The translations under genes were made by a program, and so were the position numbers. The notes beneath the pieces were generated by a model. That model was not told the origin of the DNA and did not search any database. It saw only the letters and a list, made by a program, of their open reading frames with translations. From contig NC_013156.1 of the NCBI RefSeq assembly GCF_000023985.1, forward strand, positions 1,414,363-1,478,362: DNA of 64,000 nt, written 5' to 3'. The first letter of the stretch is position 1. The number at the start of each line of letters is the position of its first letter. The stretch is from Methanocaldococcus fervens AG86 (lineage in GTDB: Archaea; AGJL01; Methanococci; Methanococcales; Methanocaldococcaceae). Below, one piece after another: positions 11,751-64,000 of the stretch.

Positions 11751-13316
11751 ATGAAAATAGCAATTCTTGCTCCAACGATAACCCCTATTGTCTCCTATGG
11801 TGGATTAGGAGATGTGATGAGGGATTTACCAAAATTTTTAAAAAATGGTAATGATGTTTTAGTCTTAACAATAAATCATTACAATAGATATTTTGATATC
11901 CCTCATGAAGTTGTTAAAAAAATAACTGTTGTTTATAAAGGTTCTAAGATTAAATTCGATGTTTTAAAGACGAGGCATCCAACAACCGGTGTTGAGTTGA
12001 TTGTATTTAGCAATGAAGAAATTAACAACTTAGATGTTTGGGATCCTATAAAGTATGAAATCTTTGCTGATTTGGTTGTTGAGTGTTTAAATGATGTGGG
12101 TGATATTGATGTCGCCTCTGGGCATGATTGGATGTGTGGTTTAGCTATAGCCAAATGTAGTGATATATTGGATTTGCCAACAACTTTGACTATACATAAT
12201 GAGGCTTTTAAAGGGGAGATGGTTGAGTATAAAGGAGAGGTTATGACTTTCTTAGAGTTGGGAATTAAATATGCCGATGCAGTCAACACCGTAAGTCCTA
12301 CACACGCTGAAGAGATAAAAAACTGCCCATATATAAAGAAATATTTGGATGGTAAGCCATTTGTTGGAATTCTAAATGGTATAGATATAGATGAATACGA
12401 CCCTATAAAAATAATAGATAGAATGATAACCCTTTCAAATAACAAACTCGATCCGAGAAATTACGCTTATATCTCACCGTACTCAGCTGAAGATGCTTAT
12501 GATGTAAAGCCAAAAATAAAATATTCGTGGTTTTATAAGGGAGGGGTTTATGAATACGTTGAAGATTGGAATAAAATAAAAGATAGGGGAATTTCAGCTA
12601 CGGAAGTTGAGGTGCATGGTGGACTGAAGGGGGAGGTTGAAACTCCATTAATTGGATTTGTAGGTAGGGCTACATATCAAAAAGGATTTGATGTAATGTT
12701 CGAAGCAATTCCTGAACTTTTAGAAAAACATGACATAAGATTTGTATTTTTAACAAAGGGGGAGAGGGAAATTGAAGATAAATTAAAAAATCTCGCTGAG
12801 GAATATGATGGAAAGATTTTGGCTTTAATAGGTTATTCTCTCCCACTTTCATCGCTGGTGTTTGCTGGAAGTGATTGGATGGTTATGCCTTCATATTGGG
12901 AGCCGTGTGGTTTGGTTCAAATGGAAGCGATGGCGTACTGCACTCCAGTTATAGCCACAGAGACTGGGGGTTTAAAAGACACTATAATACCTCTCCACTA
13001 CAACCCTTACGAATTCCCAAACTTTAATAAAGCAACAGGTGTATTATTTAAAGTACCTGATAAAGCAGGATTTATGTGGGGTGTTGAACATGCGTTAAAT
13101 TGGACATTTTATAAAGTTAGTGAGGTGTGTATGTTTTTACAGTATGAAGCATACAAATGCCCTACTCGACCATATGACGAAAACGCCCCTCTTTCCATGA
13201 TGATGAGAAATTGTTATTACCATGTTCTTAGAAACTTAAGCTGGCAGAACTCTCCATCTATAAGGAGATACAAGGGTTTGTTTGGTGGTGCAGTTTACAA
13301 TCATTATTTAAAATAG
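11751..13316 (+). CDS. glgA: glycogen synthase (GT5 type)
   Basis: Predicted to extend alpha-1,4-glucan from a nucleotide-activated glucose. SYGGLGDVMRDLPKFLK matches the glycine-rich donor loop of bacterial and archaeal glycogen synthases. FVGRATYQKGFDVMFE and SYWEPCGLVQMEAMAYCTPVIA hold the phosphate and catalytic residues. It has 521 residues. Of two in-frame starts (GTG 11742, ATG 11751) the ATG has GTGAT at good spacing. pgi and the ADP-dependent sugar kinase follow on the same strand, forming a glycogen and glycolysis operon. Confidence 0.85.
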   Translation: MKIAILAPTITPIVSYGGLGDVMRDLPKFLKNGNDVLVLTINHYNRYFDIPHEVVKKITVVYKGSKIKFDVLKTRHPTTGVELIVFSNEEINNLDVWDPIKYEIFADLVVECLNDVGDIDVASGHDWMCGLAIAKCSDILDLPTTLTIHNEAFKGEMVEYKGEVMTFLELGIKYADAVNTVSPTHAEEIKNCPYIKKYLDGKPFVGILNGIDIDEYDPIKIIDRMITLSNNKLDPRNYAYISPYSAEDAYDVKPKIKYSWFYKGGVYEYVEDWNKIKDRGISATEVEVHGGLKGEVETPLIGFVGRATYQKGFDVMFEAIPELLEKHDIRFVFLTKGEREIEDKLKNLAEEYDGKILALIGYSLPLSSLVFAGSDWMVMPSYWEPCGLVQMEAMAYCTPVIATETGGLKDTIIPLHYNPYEFPNFNKATGVLFKVPDKAGFMWGVEHALNWTFYKVSEVCMFLQYEAYKCPTRPYDENAPLSMMMRNCYYHVLRNLSWQNSPSIRRYKGLFGGAVYNHYLK

Positions 13317-28018: not shown

Positions 28019-29932
28019 TTATTGAATATCAACGTATATATCTCTACCTTCATCTATTGCATCTAAAATCTCCCTTCCAACCTTTGTTTTTTTGTTTATT
28101 CTAACTGTTCCATCATTTCTAACCGTAACAGTTGTTAATAACTTTCCATCAATGTATATTCTTATATTCTCCCCGGCATAATCCTCTCCAACATCTACAA
28201 CCACATATTTATCTGTTTCATAAATCTTTGTTGATTCAAGTTCGTTTACAAATTCATACTTTCTATATATGTTTTCCATGTCTTTTTCTTCTTCCTTTTC
28301 CTTTTCTTTAACTGAGATTTTTAATCCAAGCATGTCTTCCAATTTTGATATTTCCCTTCCTCCTTTACCTATAATAGCTCCAATATATTTCTCTGGCACA
28401 ATTAAATCAATTGAATTATCTCCAGTAACTTTTACCATCGGCTTAGCCTTTCTTGGCAAAATTTTTTTCAATATCTCTTCCAATTTTTCTTCAGCGTAGC
28501 TGTATATTGGAGCTTTTTTGCCACCTTCTTCTTTAATTGGCATAACAACAACTTGCTCTCCATAGGTGTAGATTTCATATTCGACCTTTCCAGTTTCAAA
28601 ATCTTTAACTTCAATAACTGGTCTTGCTAAATCCTCTTCAACCATTCCATAAGGCACTTTAACTGTAAAATCGATTTCATAAACCTTCTGTATTTTTCCA
28701 TCTTTTATAAATATTACAGTATCAACAACTTGTGGAATTACTCCAAGCTCAACTCTCCCAATTAACCTTTGAATAGCATCTATAGGCTTTGAAGCATGTA
28801 CAACCCCAACCATTCCTACTCCAGCCATTCTCATATCTGCAAATATCTCAAAATCCCTCGTTTTTCTAACTTCATCATATATTGTGTAATCGGGCCTAAC
28901 TAACAGCAAAATATCGCATGTCTTTTCCATATCTCCTTCTAATGGTGCATATTGGGTTATCTCCTTACTAACTTGCAAATCCCTTGGACTTTCCATTGTT
29001 TTAACTATTTTACCCTGACTTTTGTAAAATTCAGCTAAAGCTGCAACAAATGTTGATTTTCCACTTCCAGGAGGTCCGGAAACGAAGATACCTTCTGCCA
29101 TCTCTTTTAATCTTTCCATTAACTTATCTGATAGCTGATAATCTTCTAATGAAGCTTTAACGACTGGTCTAACCGCTGTAACTTCTAAAGCCTCAGAGAA
29201 TGGAGGTCTTGCAATTGAAATCCTAATATTTCCTAACTGAATAACTGTGGCTCCTTTTCTCTGAATTTCAAAGAATCCATTGTTTTGTTCTGCATACTTT
29301 ATAATATTATCAATTATATCTTCCATCTCTTCTTTAGTTAGTTCTTTATCACCTATTGCTACAAGTTTAACCTCTCCGGGCTTCCCCTTTTTAGCATAAG
29401 GTAAACATCCCTCTTTTAAATGCACGGACATTGTTTCTTCATCGAAGTATTTGTCCAATACAAGCTCAACTTCTTCTTCTGAAGTTTCTAAATAATAAGC
29501 TTCGATACCTTGAGCTTTAGCTAAGTTGTATTGAATCCAGTCACTTGTTAATAATATAGAGTTTGTTTCTTTAGCTACTTTTCTAATCATCGCATCTATT
29601 TCTCCACTTTTTGCTAAAAATATCTCTTCTCTTGTAGGTCTCTCTCCATAGTATTCAACTTTAATATTATGTTCATTAGCCTTTTCTGTTAATTTTCTAA
29701 GCTCTTCTATCCCTTTATATCCAATTTCTCTTCCTTTATTTGCCTGAAATTCCAATTCAGAAACTACTGCTTCAGGAATTATTATTGTAGCATCTTTTAA
29801 TTTTCCTTTTTCAATCAATTCAGTTATTCTACCATCTATAACAACACAAGTATCTACACAGACTTTTTTTCCAATTAAATCCAACTCTTCAATAGATTTT
29901 GTTTCTATTTTCTTCCTTTCTTCAAGATTCAT
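28019..29932 (-). CDS. PIN-domain, PilT-like ATPase, KH-domain protein
   Basis: A 637-residue archaeal protein of three parts. Residues ~1-150 form a PIN nuclease domain (KVCVDTCVVIDGRITELI, IDAMIRKVA, LLTSDWIQ). Residues ~225-430 form a secretion-ATPase-like core with Walker A GPPGSGKSTFV. A KH domain (IIGKGGREISKLED) is near residues 510-560. An RNA-processing or decay role is likely but unproven. GGTGG before the ATG at 29932 sets the start; the reading extends to 29953 without a ribosome site. Confidence 0.85.
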   Translation of the reverse strand: MNLEERKKIETKSIEELDLIGKKVCVDTCVVIDGRITELIEKGKLKDATIIIPEAVVSELEFQANKGREIGYKGIEELRKLTEKANEHNIKVEYYGERPTREEIFLAKSGEIDAMIRKVAKETNSILLTSDWIQYNLAKAQGIEAYYLETSEEEVELVLDKYFDEETMSVHLKEGCLPYAKKGKPGEVKLVAIGDKELTKEEMEDIIDNIIKYAEQNNGFFEIQRKGATVIQLGNIRISIARPPFSEALEVTAVRPVVKASLEDYQLSDKLMERLKEMAEGIFVSGPPGSGKSTFVAALAEFYKSQGKIVKTMESPRDLQVSKEITQYAPLEGDMEKTCDILLLVRPDYTIYDEVRKTRDFEIFADMRMAGVGMVGVVHASKPIDAIQRLIGRVELGVIPQVVDTVIFIKDGKIQKVYEIDFTVKVPYGMVEEDLARPVIEVKDFETGKVEYEIYTYGEQVVVMPIKEEGGKKAPIYSYAEEKLEEILKKILPRKAKPMVKVTGDNSIDLIVPEKYIGAIIGKGGREISKLEDMLGLKISVKEKEKEEEKDMENIYRKYEFVNELESTKIYETDKYVVVDVGEDYAGENIRIYIDGKLLTTVTVRNDGTVRINKKTKVGREILDAIDEGRDIYVDIQ

Positions 29933-60401: not shown

Positions 60402-60890
60402 TCATTTACCTTCTCTATGGAAAAAGACTTCAATGTTCTTTGACGGCTGACCTATTAACATATTTATATATTCTATAAAAACATAAACAATTAATGACAT
60501 AATTTGTGCAGGAGTATAATCTTTAGGAGGGTAGCATAACCACGGAGTTCTCCAATCATTATTTTCATCAATAATCATCAAAGATATAGGACCTACACTC
60601 TTATGTTTCATCCAGCACTTTCCATCATCCAATTTTTTATAAGAAATAGTGCATAGAATTTCATGTGGCGTTACATTTAAATAGTAATATCGCTTTTCAA
60701 GCCAATCAACGTATATCTGCACTTCTGAGACTATCTGTCTGTCATGTATAATCTTACCAAACTGTTGCAATATGTCACAAAACGAAATTACATCCGACAA
60801 TGTCCAATAATTTACCTGTTTTTTATCCAATCTTTTTAATCTACTTACTAATCTTTTTAGGTCGTTACGGTCCTCAGGTGATAGTGCCAT
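60402..60890 (-). CDS. hypothetical viral protein
   Basis: A 162-residue protein, helical in its first half (SPEDRNDLKRLVSRLKRLDKKQ) and with a Trp/Tyr-rich second half (WRTPWLCYPPKDYTPAQIMSLIVYVFIEYINML). I do not recognise it. GGTGGCAGT precedes the ATG. It is next to the dyad-rich noncoding stretch, so a replication or maintenance role is possible but not shown. Confidence 0.55.
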   Translation of the reverse strand: MALSPEDRNDLKRLVSRLKRLDKKQVNYWTLSDVISFCDILQQFGKIIHDRQIVSEVQIYVDWLEKRYYYLNVTPHEILCTISYKKLDDGKCWMKHKSVGPISLMIIDENNDWRTPWLCYPPKDYTPAQIMSLIVYVFIEYINMLIGQPSKNIEVFFHREGK

Positions 60891-60950
60891 ACTGCCACCA
60901 TATTTAAGTTTGTTGATATTTGTAGGATAGTGTCCCGAGATGTGTCGGAT

Positions 60951-61235
60951 TTAGAGATAAATATAATTCTTTGAGATTTTACAAAATTCTAAATAATTTA
61001 TGTCCTATTTTTGGTTTAGAGTCCAAATTATGAAATCGTATAATTTGGGCTTATCTCTAAGGTATTCAAACTTAATTGTTCTTATTTTCTTGGTTTAGGG
61101 AATATAAACCGTTATCTAAGTATCTCGGTTTAAATGTTACTAAACCGCATAATCTCAATAAATTGACCTTTTAAGTCCAGAGATGAGAACATTTTAAGCT
61201 TTTTTACAAATAAGACTCTAAACCAAAAATAAACC
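60951..61235. other. candidate viral replication origin (dyads and GGTTTA iterons)
   Basis: The gap 60891-61305 has no gene but is dense with repeats. A perfect 18-bp inverted repeat links 61006-61023 and 61214-61231. Others are TTAGAGATAA/TTATCTCTAA at 60951-60960 and 61051-61060, and a 9-bp dyad at 61023-61031/61040-61048. The hexamer GGTTTA occurs on the plus strand near 61013, 61092 and 61127 and reversed near 61105, 61141, 61219 and 61230. The viral helicase gene is ~800 bases away. Confidence 0.5.
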
Positions 61236-61305
61236 ATTTTTCTTTGAGTTTTGAACAAAATAAGGCAAATGTTTGTCCATCTCAGAATTGATATATAGTT
61301 CTATA

Positions 61306-61659
61306 TTACCCATGCTCAGATATGGAATTTTGTGAATCCAAATCTATGACTTTGAAATGAATTTCAAGTGCTTGGTTATCTTTTAACTTTTCAAATGTTT
61401 TCAATAGCTTTAAGATTTTTAACGCTTCTTTACCTCTTTCAGTGATTGAATAATATGATTTTACTCTACCACCCTCATAATCGCTTTTTTCTGTTTTACT
61501 TACTAATCCTTCAAGCAATAACTCTGATAAAAGCAATGTTAAATTACTTGGATTTATGCCTGTTTTTCTTTGAAGTTGTCCAAAAAACATCTCACCCTCT
61601 TCCTCAAGAAGTTCAAGAATTTTATCAACGTTTTTCTTCATTAATGTTTTTCTAATCAT
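61306..61659 (-). CDS. winged-helix transcription regulator
   Basis: A 117-residue DNA-binding protein. A winged helix-turn-helix (ILELLEEEGEMFFGQLQRKTGINPSNLTLLLSELLLEGLVSKTEKSDYEGGRVKSYYSITERGKEAL) of the MarR/ArsR/PadR type is followed by a helix for dimerisation. The ATG at 61659 suits GGTGATAA better than 61662. Upstream it faces a control region that has the palindromic operators also found at 55.45 kb, so it is the best candidate for their binder. Confidence 0.8.
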   Translation of the reverse strand: MIRKTLMKKNVDKILELLEEEGEMFFGQLQRKTGINPSNLTLLLSELLLEGLVSKTEKSDYEGGRVKSYYSITERGKEALKILKLLKTFEKLKDNQALEIHFKVIDLDSQNSISEHG

Positions 61660-61700
61660 CATTTATCACCCATTAAAGTTGCAAAATTCCAAATGTAATT

Positions 61701-61833: not shown

Positions 61834-62001
61834 ATGGACTCCAAAAAAAGAGGTAGAAAAACTGAGAGAATCGAAGGGAAATGCTACATTTGTAAAGGAG
61901 TTCCAGTAGGAGGGTCTTGCAGACCTTATCCTTACTTGCCAAAAGATTGTGTGGGGAAAACATTGATAATAATTCCTATTGACTCTGAAAATGAAGAATA
62001 G
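61834..62001 (+). CDS. 55-residue zinc-finger-like miniprotein
   Basis: Read directly: ATG 61834, TAG at 61999-62001. Basic N-terminus (MDSKKRGRKTERIEG), then four cysteines at residues 17, 20, 29 and 39 (CYIC, SC, DC), consistent with a small zinc site, and an acidic end. GGTGGGATT precedes the ATG. It starts 13 bases after the last operator and ends 9 bases before mcm, so it heads the mcm transcript. It may bind DNA or a replication partner. Confidence 0.65.
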   Translation: MDSKKRGRKTERIEGKCYICKGVPVGGSCRPYPYLPKDCVGKTLIIIPIDSENEE

Positions 62002-62010
62002 CGTGAGATT

Positions 62011-64000
62011 ATGGCTTATGATAATATAAAAAGAGAAATTATAAGCATGTTAAAAAGAATGCCTAACAAACAGGCGGATTGGGATAATGATTTATTACCA
62101 ACTTTAAAGGCAATGTTTAACCCAAAATCTGTTTCAAACGCCAAATCCCAATTAATCTCAGAAGGCTGTATATCTCAAGAAATTATTGATGGAAGAAAAA
62201 TTATAACCCTCATTAAAGACCCTTATGAAATATCCTCCCCTAACACTTTTGATGAAGAATTTTTCTTAGCTAACTATGAATATAAGATAAAAAAATACTT
62301 CAAAGAAAAGTTATCAACTGAAGGACCAGAGTGGAATGTTTTTGATGTTGAGGAATTTACATATCATTTCATAGATTGTTTGGAGATAAATGATAAGATA
62401 GTTAATAATCCTTATGAGTGTAGAAGATTGATAAATGAGATTTATAAAGAAGCTTATGAGGAGATTTTTGGTGGAGTTCCTGAAAGTATTGTTAGGATAA
62501 GGAATCTTAGAGAAAATATGGTTAAGATTTCTGAACTTCAAAGTAAGCATGTTGGTAAGCTTATAGAGTTTGAAGGCATGATTATTCAGGCAGGAAAGCC
62601 AATGAGTAGGGTTGCAAAAGGGGCGTTTGAATGTCCAAGATGTGGTAGGGTTAAGTATGTTGAGCTTGATATTTGGGATGACCCTATTAACGTGGCTAAG
62701 GAGTTAAGTTGTCCTGAATGTGACATAAAGGGTTTTAGGTATTTAGAGAGCGAGTCAGAGCATGTCAATTTCCAAGAAATTTATGTTCAGCAACCTTTGG
62801 AGTTAAGTAAAGACGGGAAACAACACACAATAACAGTGTTTGCTGAGGGGTTTCCACCAATATATAATGGTAAGGTTAAGATTACTGGGGTTGCTATTAA
62901 GAAGAAAATTAAGGGTTCTGTGTCAAAGATATTTATTAGAGCTTTTAATATTGAGCAGTTGGATAAAATAGACATTGAGATAACTGAGGAAGACATTGAA
63001 AAGATTAGAAAAGTGGCTAAGGATAAAAATGTAATTGAGAAATTAGCAAATTATATGTTTAGGGAGATTAAAGGGCATGAGATAGTTAAAAAAGCTATTT
63101 TTCTACAACAAATTAAAGGAATTACTTTTTTAAACGGTAAGACACTCAAAAGGGGAGATATTAATATTCTACTCATTACGGACCCGGGAATTGGAAAAAC
63201 TACAATTATGAGGAAGTTAGAATTGTATGGGAATAAGTATGTGTCTGGAGCTACTACAAGTGTTGCAGGTCTTGCTGCAGCTGTAGTTAGAGGACCTACG
63301 GAATTTGGAGAAGGGTATATTTTAAAGCCTGGGGCATTGGTGTTAGCAGATGGTAATACTTGCTGTGTTGATGAGATTGGGGTAAATAAAGAATTAACTA
63401 AGGCATTACTCGAAGCTATGGAGAGTCAAACAGTTCATGTTAATAAAGGTGGTTTTGATGCTGTATTACCAGCAAGATGTGCAATTTTAGCCGCATGTAA
63501 TCCAAAGAGGGGGAGGTTTGATAGGAATAAGACAGTTATAGAACAGATTGAGTTGTCAGCCCCTATGTTTAGTAGGTTTGATTTAATATTTCCGTTAATG
63601 GACATTCCGGATAAAAACAAGGATGCTGAGATTATAGACCACATTATTGATGAAATAAATAGAGCAATTGATGGAAAAAAAGAAAAACTTGTTATAAATG
63701 GCGTAGAAATAGATGATGAGTTTATTTTAAAGTATATACTCCATGCGAGAACATACATGCCTAAGATTAGTAAAGAAGCAAAAGAGGTTTTAAAGAACTA
63801 TTATGTTGAAATGAGGAAGTTGGGTGAGGGGGATAATCCAATACCTATAACGGCAAGACAAGCCGAGGCAATTATTAGATTAGCAGGAGCGATAGCTAAG
63901 GCTAAGTTAAAGAAAATTGTAGGAGAAGACGATGTAATGGAAGCCATTGAAATTATGGATTATTGCCTAAAACAAATCGCCTACGACCCTGAATCTGGAA
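62011..64000 (+). CDS. mcm: viral MCM-type replicative helicase (partial)
   Basis: At least 663 residues, open at the window edge. An N-terminal winged-helix-like part (MAYDNIKREIISML...) is followed by the MCM N-domain with zinc site CPRCG...CPEC near residues 207-235. AAA+ core: Walker A TDPGIGKTT (~391-398; Thr replaces the usual Gly), Walker B CCVDEIG (~451-456), sensor LAACNPKRGRF and Arg-finger SRFDLIFP. It would unwind viral DNA. GTGAG precedes the ATG. Its origin candidate and regulator lie just upstream. Confidence 0.92.
   Translation, partial: MAYDNIKREIISMLKRMPNKQADWDNDLLPTLKAMFNPKSVSNAKSQLISEGCISQEIIDGRKIITLIKDPYEISSPNTFDEEFFLANYEYKIKKYFKEKLSTEGPEWNVFDVEEFTYHFIDCLEINDKIVNNPYECRRLINEIYKEAYEEIFGGVPESIVRIRNLRENMVKISELQSKHVGKLIEFEGMIIQAGKPMSRVAKGAFECPRCGRVKYVELDIWDDPINVAKELSCPECDIKGFRYLESESEHVNFQEIYVQQPLELSKDGKQHTITVFAEGFPPIYNGKVKITGVAIKKKIKGSVSKIFIRAFNIEQLDKIDIEITEEDIEKIRKVAKDKNVIEKLANYMFREIKGHEIVKKAIFLQQIKGITFLNGKTLKRGDINILLITDPGIGKTTIMRKLELYGNKYVSGATTSVAGLAAAVVRGPTEFGEGYILKPGALVLADGNTCCVDEIGVNKELTKALLEAMESQTVHVNKGGFDAVLPARCAILAACNPKRGRFDRNKTVIEQIELSAPMFSRFDLIFPLMDIPDKNKDAEIIDHIIDEINRAIDGKKEKLVINGVEIDDEFILKYILHARTYMPKISKEAKEVLKNYYVEMRKLGEGDNPIPITARQAEAIIRLAGAIAKAKLKKIVGEDDVMEAIEIMDYCLKQIAYDPESG

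Follow-up and report, generated by a model that had tools for sequence, protein, structure and literature searches.

Mirrored words beside a winged-helix MCM gene mark a candidate replication origin of the Methanocaldococcus virus MFTV1

In SV40 large T antigen and papillomavirus E1, the replicative helicase carries its own origin-binding domain, and short inverted sites recruit two helicase rings. Bacterial plasmid iteron origins place repeated short initiator sites, mostly direct repeats, beside a replication gene. Among archaea, MCM helicases of Thermococcales viruses with an extra N-terminal winged helix have been proposed to join origin recognition and helicase in one protein, as set out in a 2026 preprint (PMC12934983). 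Origins in the pT26-2 plasmid family, which includes pMEFER01, have been predicted by repeats or skew, most often near a Rep/MCM gene, with no conserved consensus and at variable locations (PMC6972569). The Methanococcales have no recognizable Orc1/Cdc6, and their replication start has been described as an open question (PMC3984812); replication of the plasmid pURB500 needs several regions (PMC4379921).

We analyzed a 64,000-nucleotide stretch of the Methanocaldococcus fervens AG86 chromosome (the window), in which a sequence-only reading had proposed a likely viral origin. The locus would appear to be a mobile-element origin whose words are mirrored, differ between replicons, and go together with a winged-helix MCM. 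Its likeness to T antigen and E1 is one of logic, not ancestry; helicase and fold are unrelated, and the archaeal words span ~220 bp rather than being pentanucleotides. Unlike iterons, which are mostly direct repeats, the words have a mirror axis. As in the Thermococcales viruses, a viral MCM with an N-terminal winged helix occurs where a viral Orc1/Cdc6 is absent; there, the extension is ~200 aa long and the available part of the preprint (PMC12934983) mentions no cis element, whereas the MFTV1 domain comprises ~72 aa and goes with mirrored DNA that is conserved. To the idea in that preprint we would add a candidate for the DNA partner, one that is conserved and that recurs elsewhere with different words. 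Compared with the predictions for the pT26-2 family, what is conserved here is the mirror arrangement of the words rather than their sequence. Archaeal origins of the Orc1/Cdc6-ORB type likewise combine inverted recognition sites, an AT-rich region, and an adjoining replication gene, but the Methanococcales have no recognizable Orc1/Cdc6 (PMC3984812), and the common (DoriC) form of ORB has no match in the window at up to 3 mismatches. The Methanococcaceae form has one window match, which lies outside the stretch and is below the chance count. On sequence grounds, the stretch is not an Orc1/Cdc6-ORB origin.

Window positions 34979-64000 hold the MFTV1 provirus of M. fervens, assigned to this virus (Caudoviricetes, Fervensviridae) by 99.99% identity to MT711370 1673-30691; the host genome consists of a chromosome of 1,485,061 bp and a second replicon, pMEFER01, of 22,190 bp. 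The candidate origin (60915-61290, ~375 bases, 27.6-28.0 kb in MFTV1 coordinates) sits upstream of the start of a minus-strand gene (60402-60890) and is faced, on its other side, by the 3' end of a small winged-helix (ArsR/PadR-like) regulator gene, a module member on the minus strand (61306-61662; Pfam HTH_5, 7.8e-6). A small plus-strand DUF2080-like gene (61834-62001) is degenerate in MFTV1 (E 0.04) and clear in relatives (2.1e-25 and 5.9e-10). These two small genes lie between the stretch and mcm, which starts at 62011 on the plus strand, runs to 63999 and continues beyond the window end (MT711370 28702-30933), and encodes an element-type MCM helicase of 743 aa (Pfam MCM, 4.6e-72). A minus-strand protospacer at the candidate origin's margin (60901-60939) is matched at 92% by a 39-nt spacer from a CRISPR array in another Methanocaldococcus genome (G011, L010:1180-1218), so the bearers of this spacer have probably met viruses carrying this region. 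Elsewhere in the provirus, two intergenic direct-repeat pairs of 40-50 bp and 88-93% identity (55504-55554/56021-56069 and 57903-57942/58897-58937) have similar counterparts in the M. jannaschii provirus and are perhaps shared promoter or recombination cassettes.

An 18-bp perfect inverted repeat, further dyads, and seven GGTTTA hexamers had been reported for the stretch, and all of them were located. The left repeat arm (TATTTTTGGTTTAGAGTC, 61006-61023, plus strand) recurs as its reverse complement at 61214-61231 (minus strand), the two arms being 190 bp apart; a third copy does not occur in the 64 kb at ≤3 mismatches, where 0.25 chance matches are expected. Additional dyads include 61020-61031/61040-61051 and 60951-60960/61051-61060. 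GGTTTA is the most overrepresented hexamer of the stretch (7 vs. 0.35 expected, P ~1e-7), with three forward copies at 61013, 61092, and 61127 and four reverse copies at 61105, 61141, 61219, and 61230. The actual order is thus forward, forward, reverse, forward, and then three times reverse, and the described succession of forward and then mostly reversed words does not hold strictly, although the seven words themselves do.

The sequence-only reading did not contain the mirror axis that the words share. The spacings are 79, 13, 22, 14, and 78 bp, followed by 11 bp, and three pairs are mirrored about 61118.5-61119: word 1 (GGTTTA, 61013-61018) in the left repeat arm with word 6 (TAAACC, 61219-61224) in the right arm, word 2 (GGTTTAG, 61092-61098, plus strand) with word 5 (CTAAACC, 61140-61146, minus strand), and word 3 (TAAACCG, 61105-61111, minus strand) with word 4 (CGGTTTA, 61126-61132, plus strand). 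Word 7 (TAAACC, 61230-61235, minus strand) is without a mirror partner. We expressed this arrangement as a mirror score, the summed inverted matches sharing one axis, with dinucleotide shuffles as controls. The stretch scores 24 (axis ~61118.5), compared with 9.8 ± 2.1 for the shuffles, of which 1 in 1,000 matched it; this is the top peak within the 64 kb, the runner-up being 17. When seven words were placed at random, three mirrored pairs on one axis arose in 0.34% of trials. With an AT content of 0.62-0.80 along its length, the stretch presents the repeated, dyad initiator-like sites, the gene-free AT-rich DNA, and the nearby replication gene of an origin.

Relatives of the MCM locus came from a search of 36 Methanococcales genomes. 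The M. jannaschii provirus (L009) holds the same stretch, 88.3% identical and gapless over 60915-61290, with flanks at 45-58%. All seven words are conserved there, at 42/42 bases, vs. 290/334 for the other bases of the stretch (P 0.004). Beyond the stretch, DNA identity is 54.6% for the arsR-like coding sequence, 45.0% for the next spacer, and 49.4% for the DUF2080 gene; it then rises to 92.1% (93% at the amino acid level) over the first 72 mcm codons and is 67.5% in the following mcm DNA, the rest of the MCM protein being 51-56% identical. Two islands of conservation, the stretch and the N-terminal codons of MCM, are thus separated by ~700 diverged bases. They are hard to account for by one recombination block, whereas a constraint joining the stretch to the MCM N-terminus could explain them. 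Viral and genome collections scanned for exact patterns yielded one contig only, which reads the same as the window over the stretch; related loci sought with MCM in these collections were not found, and a DNA search of a plasmid collection gave no match to the query DNA. Weak 40-nt matches in two genomes (G001 and G008; L005 and L006) look like chance matches in AT-rich intergenic DNA.

The same comparison bears on whether the stretch is instead a long regulatory region, made up of lysis/lysogeny operators or the promoter of the 60402-60890 gene. Its position upstream of that minus-strand gene and beside a regulator gene would fit such a role. Yet the M. jannaschii provirus keeps the stretch although the downstream gene has been swapped for an unrelated one, identity over the 24 bp on the promoter side of the gene is only 58%, and it is the 3' end of the regulator gene that adjoins the stretch; we give this explanation little probability. 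It is more improbable still that the stretch is a structured RNA or the source of a 51-aa protein annotated in the MFTV1 record (QNO11509, MT711370 27824-27979; window 61130-61285, minus strand). A strong fold is predicted on both strands (z -4.0 and -4.9), as would follow from DNA words that are mirrored; compared with the relative, 13-18 predicted pairs are lost and 1 is compensated, and the stretch has no Rfam match. The annotated reading frame begins with CTG, is interrupted by an in-frame stop in the relative, and has changes spread over the codon positions without bias (10/6/6). We do not regard it as a credible gene, and with this qualification the earlier description of the region as gene-free holds.

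The N-terminal island of mcm (62011-62226, plus strand) corresponds to a domain of ~72-75 residues that chromosomal-type MCMs of the order do not have: matches begin at query residue 1-13 in element-type MCMs and mostly at 76-135 in the chromosomal type. For the isolated domain, AlphaFold predicts a winged helix (pLDDT 93.4). Structure comparison and profile searches both match it to DNA-binding domains of the winged-helix class, with a structural Z of 10.8 to the winged helix of P. abyssi Rpa2. A shared fold alone is no proof of DNA binding; the domain, which is co-conserved with the stretch, is our proposed reader of the words. The relation between shared words and MCM N-terminal identity differs among groups: it is clear for MFTV1 and M. 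jannaschii and for G011 and G009 (N-terminus 77% identical vs. 45% in the ATPase part), weak for G023 and G032, and absent in the group with ATTCAC words, where conservation of the N-terminus is no higher than that of the remaining MCM.

Every winged-helix MCM gene found in the 36 genomes has a nearby gene-free stretch with words mirrored on one axis. The words vary by group while the layout is constant: GGTTTA in MFTV1 and M. jannaschii; ATTCAC in G005, G029, G033, and G022, three of which have an FtsK/HerA-like ATPase gene close by; GTTTATCTC in G011 and G009; TATGAWAAT in G023 and G032; and ATTCGG in pMEFER01. We then restricted the comparison to mirrored stretches ≤1.5 kb upstream with z ≥ 3 vs. 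shuffles, for 76 MCM genes of Methanococcales. Such a stretch precedes 11/11 MCM genes with the N-terminal domain and 8/65 without it (Fisher 1.3e-8, Mann-Whitney 1.9e-7), a contrast that may be understated, since two of the eight are extrachromosomal elements (L078 and L079). Three loci with nonextended MCMs score z ≥ 5. The Thermococcus plasmid pTN3, with a long MCM (919 aa), has no mirrored stretch (score 14).

These loci also bear on which protein would read the words. The stretch could be an origin whose words are read by the ArsR/PadR-like protein or by the AbrB-like DUF2080 protein, with MCM recruited indirectly, and the genes for both small proteins do flank the origin stretch in most winged-helix MCM loci. 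The provirus in G029 speaks for this arrangement and does not fit reading by the MCM N-terminus alone: its stretch has 84-89% identity with the G033 and G022 stretches, and its MCM N-terminus (38%) and ArsR-like protein (41-43%) are both less conserved than its DUF2080 protein (53-55%). Either the winged helix of MCM is not the sole reader, or the G029 locus is recombinant. On the other hand, where MFTV1 and the M. jannaschii provirus have all seven words in common, the ArsR-like and DUF2080 proteins are 44% identical vs. 93% for the MCM N-terminus, and the ArsR-like gene is absent beside the stretch in G011/G009 and in pMEFER01. The ArsR-like protein, diverged where the words are identical, is weakened as a candidate reader, and indirect recruitment of MCM by either small protein seems unlikely, leaving the winged helix of MCM itself as the reader that we favor.

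Cumulative GC skew places a minimum near the axis in both replicons of this strain, at 28,472 in MFTV1 (axis 27,814, 0.66 kb apart) and at 12,472 in pMEFER01 (axis 13,106, 0.63 kb apart), although skew is confounded by gene direction and the corrected MFTV1 minimum shifts to 1.2 kb. Short inverted word arrays are also typical of partition sites, and winged-helix proteins can bind centromeres, as TubR and AspA do. Instead of an origin, the stretch might accordingly be a centromere-like segregation site or a packaging site. No partition ATPase gene adjoins it, though, and the link that recurs across elements is to a helicase gene; the same layout in plasmids without a tailed virion, pMEFER01 and pURB500, speaks against packaging. 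We consider a segregation or packaging role quite improbable.

pURB500 of M. maripaludis is an autonomously replicating plasmid used for shuttle vectors. Its strongest mirrored stretch (L082:3957-4742), with ATCGAACAT words, lies in a gene-free gap. It shares with MFTV1 the gene-free gaps and the mirrored words of an autonomous replicon; unlike MFTV1, it has no MCM, its words are different, and it encodes an 870-aa protein without a Pfam match. Among the strongest mirrored stretches is also one from FS406-22 (L077:4290-4840; score 38), with CAATGACA words. It adjoins the gene for a 781-aa protein that has weak AAA-like Pfam matches only and is not a recognizable MCM; this is possibly an unrecognized replication protein.

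A viral origin, as the sequence-only reading had suggested, is the best supported explanation, because the stretch and its words are conserved while their neighbors have diverged, the mirrored layout stands beside winged-helix MCM genes, and the skew minimum is close. We propose that 60915-61290 is probably the MFTV1 replication origin, with its words read most likely by the N-terminal winged helix of MCM itself; the origin part of this proposal is well supported by the sequence comparisons. What we infer, namely that the stretch acts as an origin, that the MCM N-terminus reads its words, and how the rings are loaded, would play out as follows. The (T/C)GGTTTA copies, which lie pairwise equidistant from the axis and oppositely oriented on its two sides, would be bound by the winged helix of MCM, and the opposed words would bring in two MCM rings pointing in opposite directions. 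Between the rings, the AT-rich DNA would then open, and a fork would depart each way. Orc1/Cdc6 would not be required, which fits a host order without a recognizable one.

The proposal may extend to mobile replicons of the Methanococcales more widely: an MCM with a swappable winged helix would read replicon-specific mirrored words and load opposed rings without a separate initiator or loader, a plan that the host chromosome may share. We hold this generalization to be possible, if somewhat doubtful. A helicase that reads its own words could explain how copying starts in such elements without the usual archaeal initiator, and having such words defined for a virus that has been isolated and for cultivated plasmids would make the Methanococcales replication start directly testable. 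The mirrored layout offers a way to find origins of archaeal mobile elements where consensus has failed (PMC6972569). It may also serve vector building for these methanogens.

On the host chromosomes, we observed a near-identical inverted pair of a 23-bp sequence, TTTTCGAGTTGCATGTATGTATA, ~340 bp apart around an AT-rich core, for example in L147 (G000:C1:971261-971624) and L148 (G003:C1:693639-694000). The pair differs from the DoriC motif for Methanococcaceae. Complete copies occur once per genome in nine Methanocaldococcus genomes and in two of another genus (g5), with partial copies in others. The pair, with a mirror score of z 8-10, adjoins an Orc-like AAA gene and a winged-helix gene, which we take to be of the MJ0774/MJ0773 type. 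In M. jannaschii, the candidate chromosomal origin region, at its published position, contains an inverted pair of this kind, and the TTTTCGAGTTGCATGTATGTATA pair is possibly the chromosomal origin.
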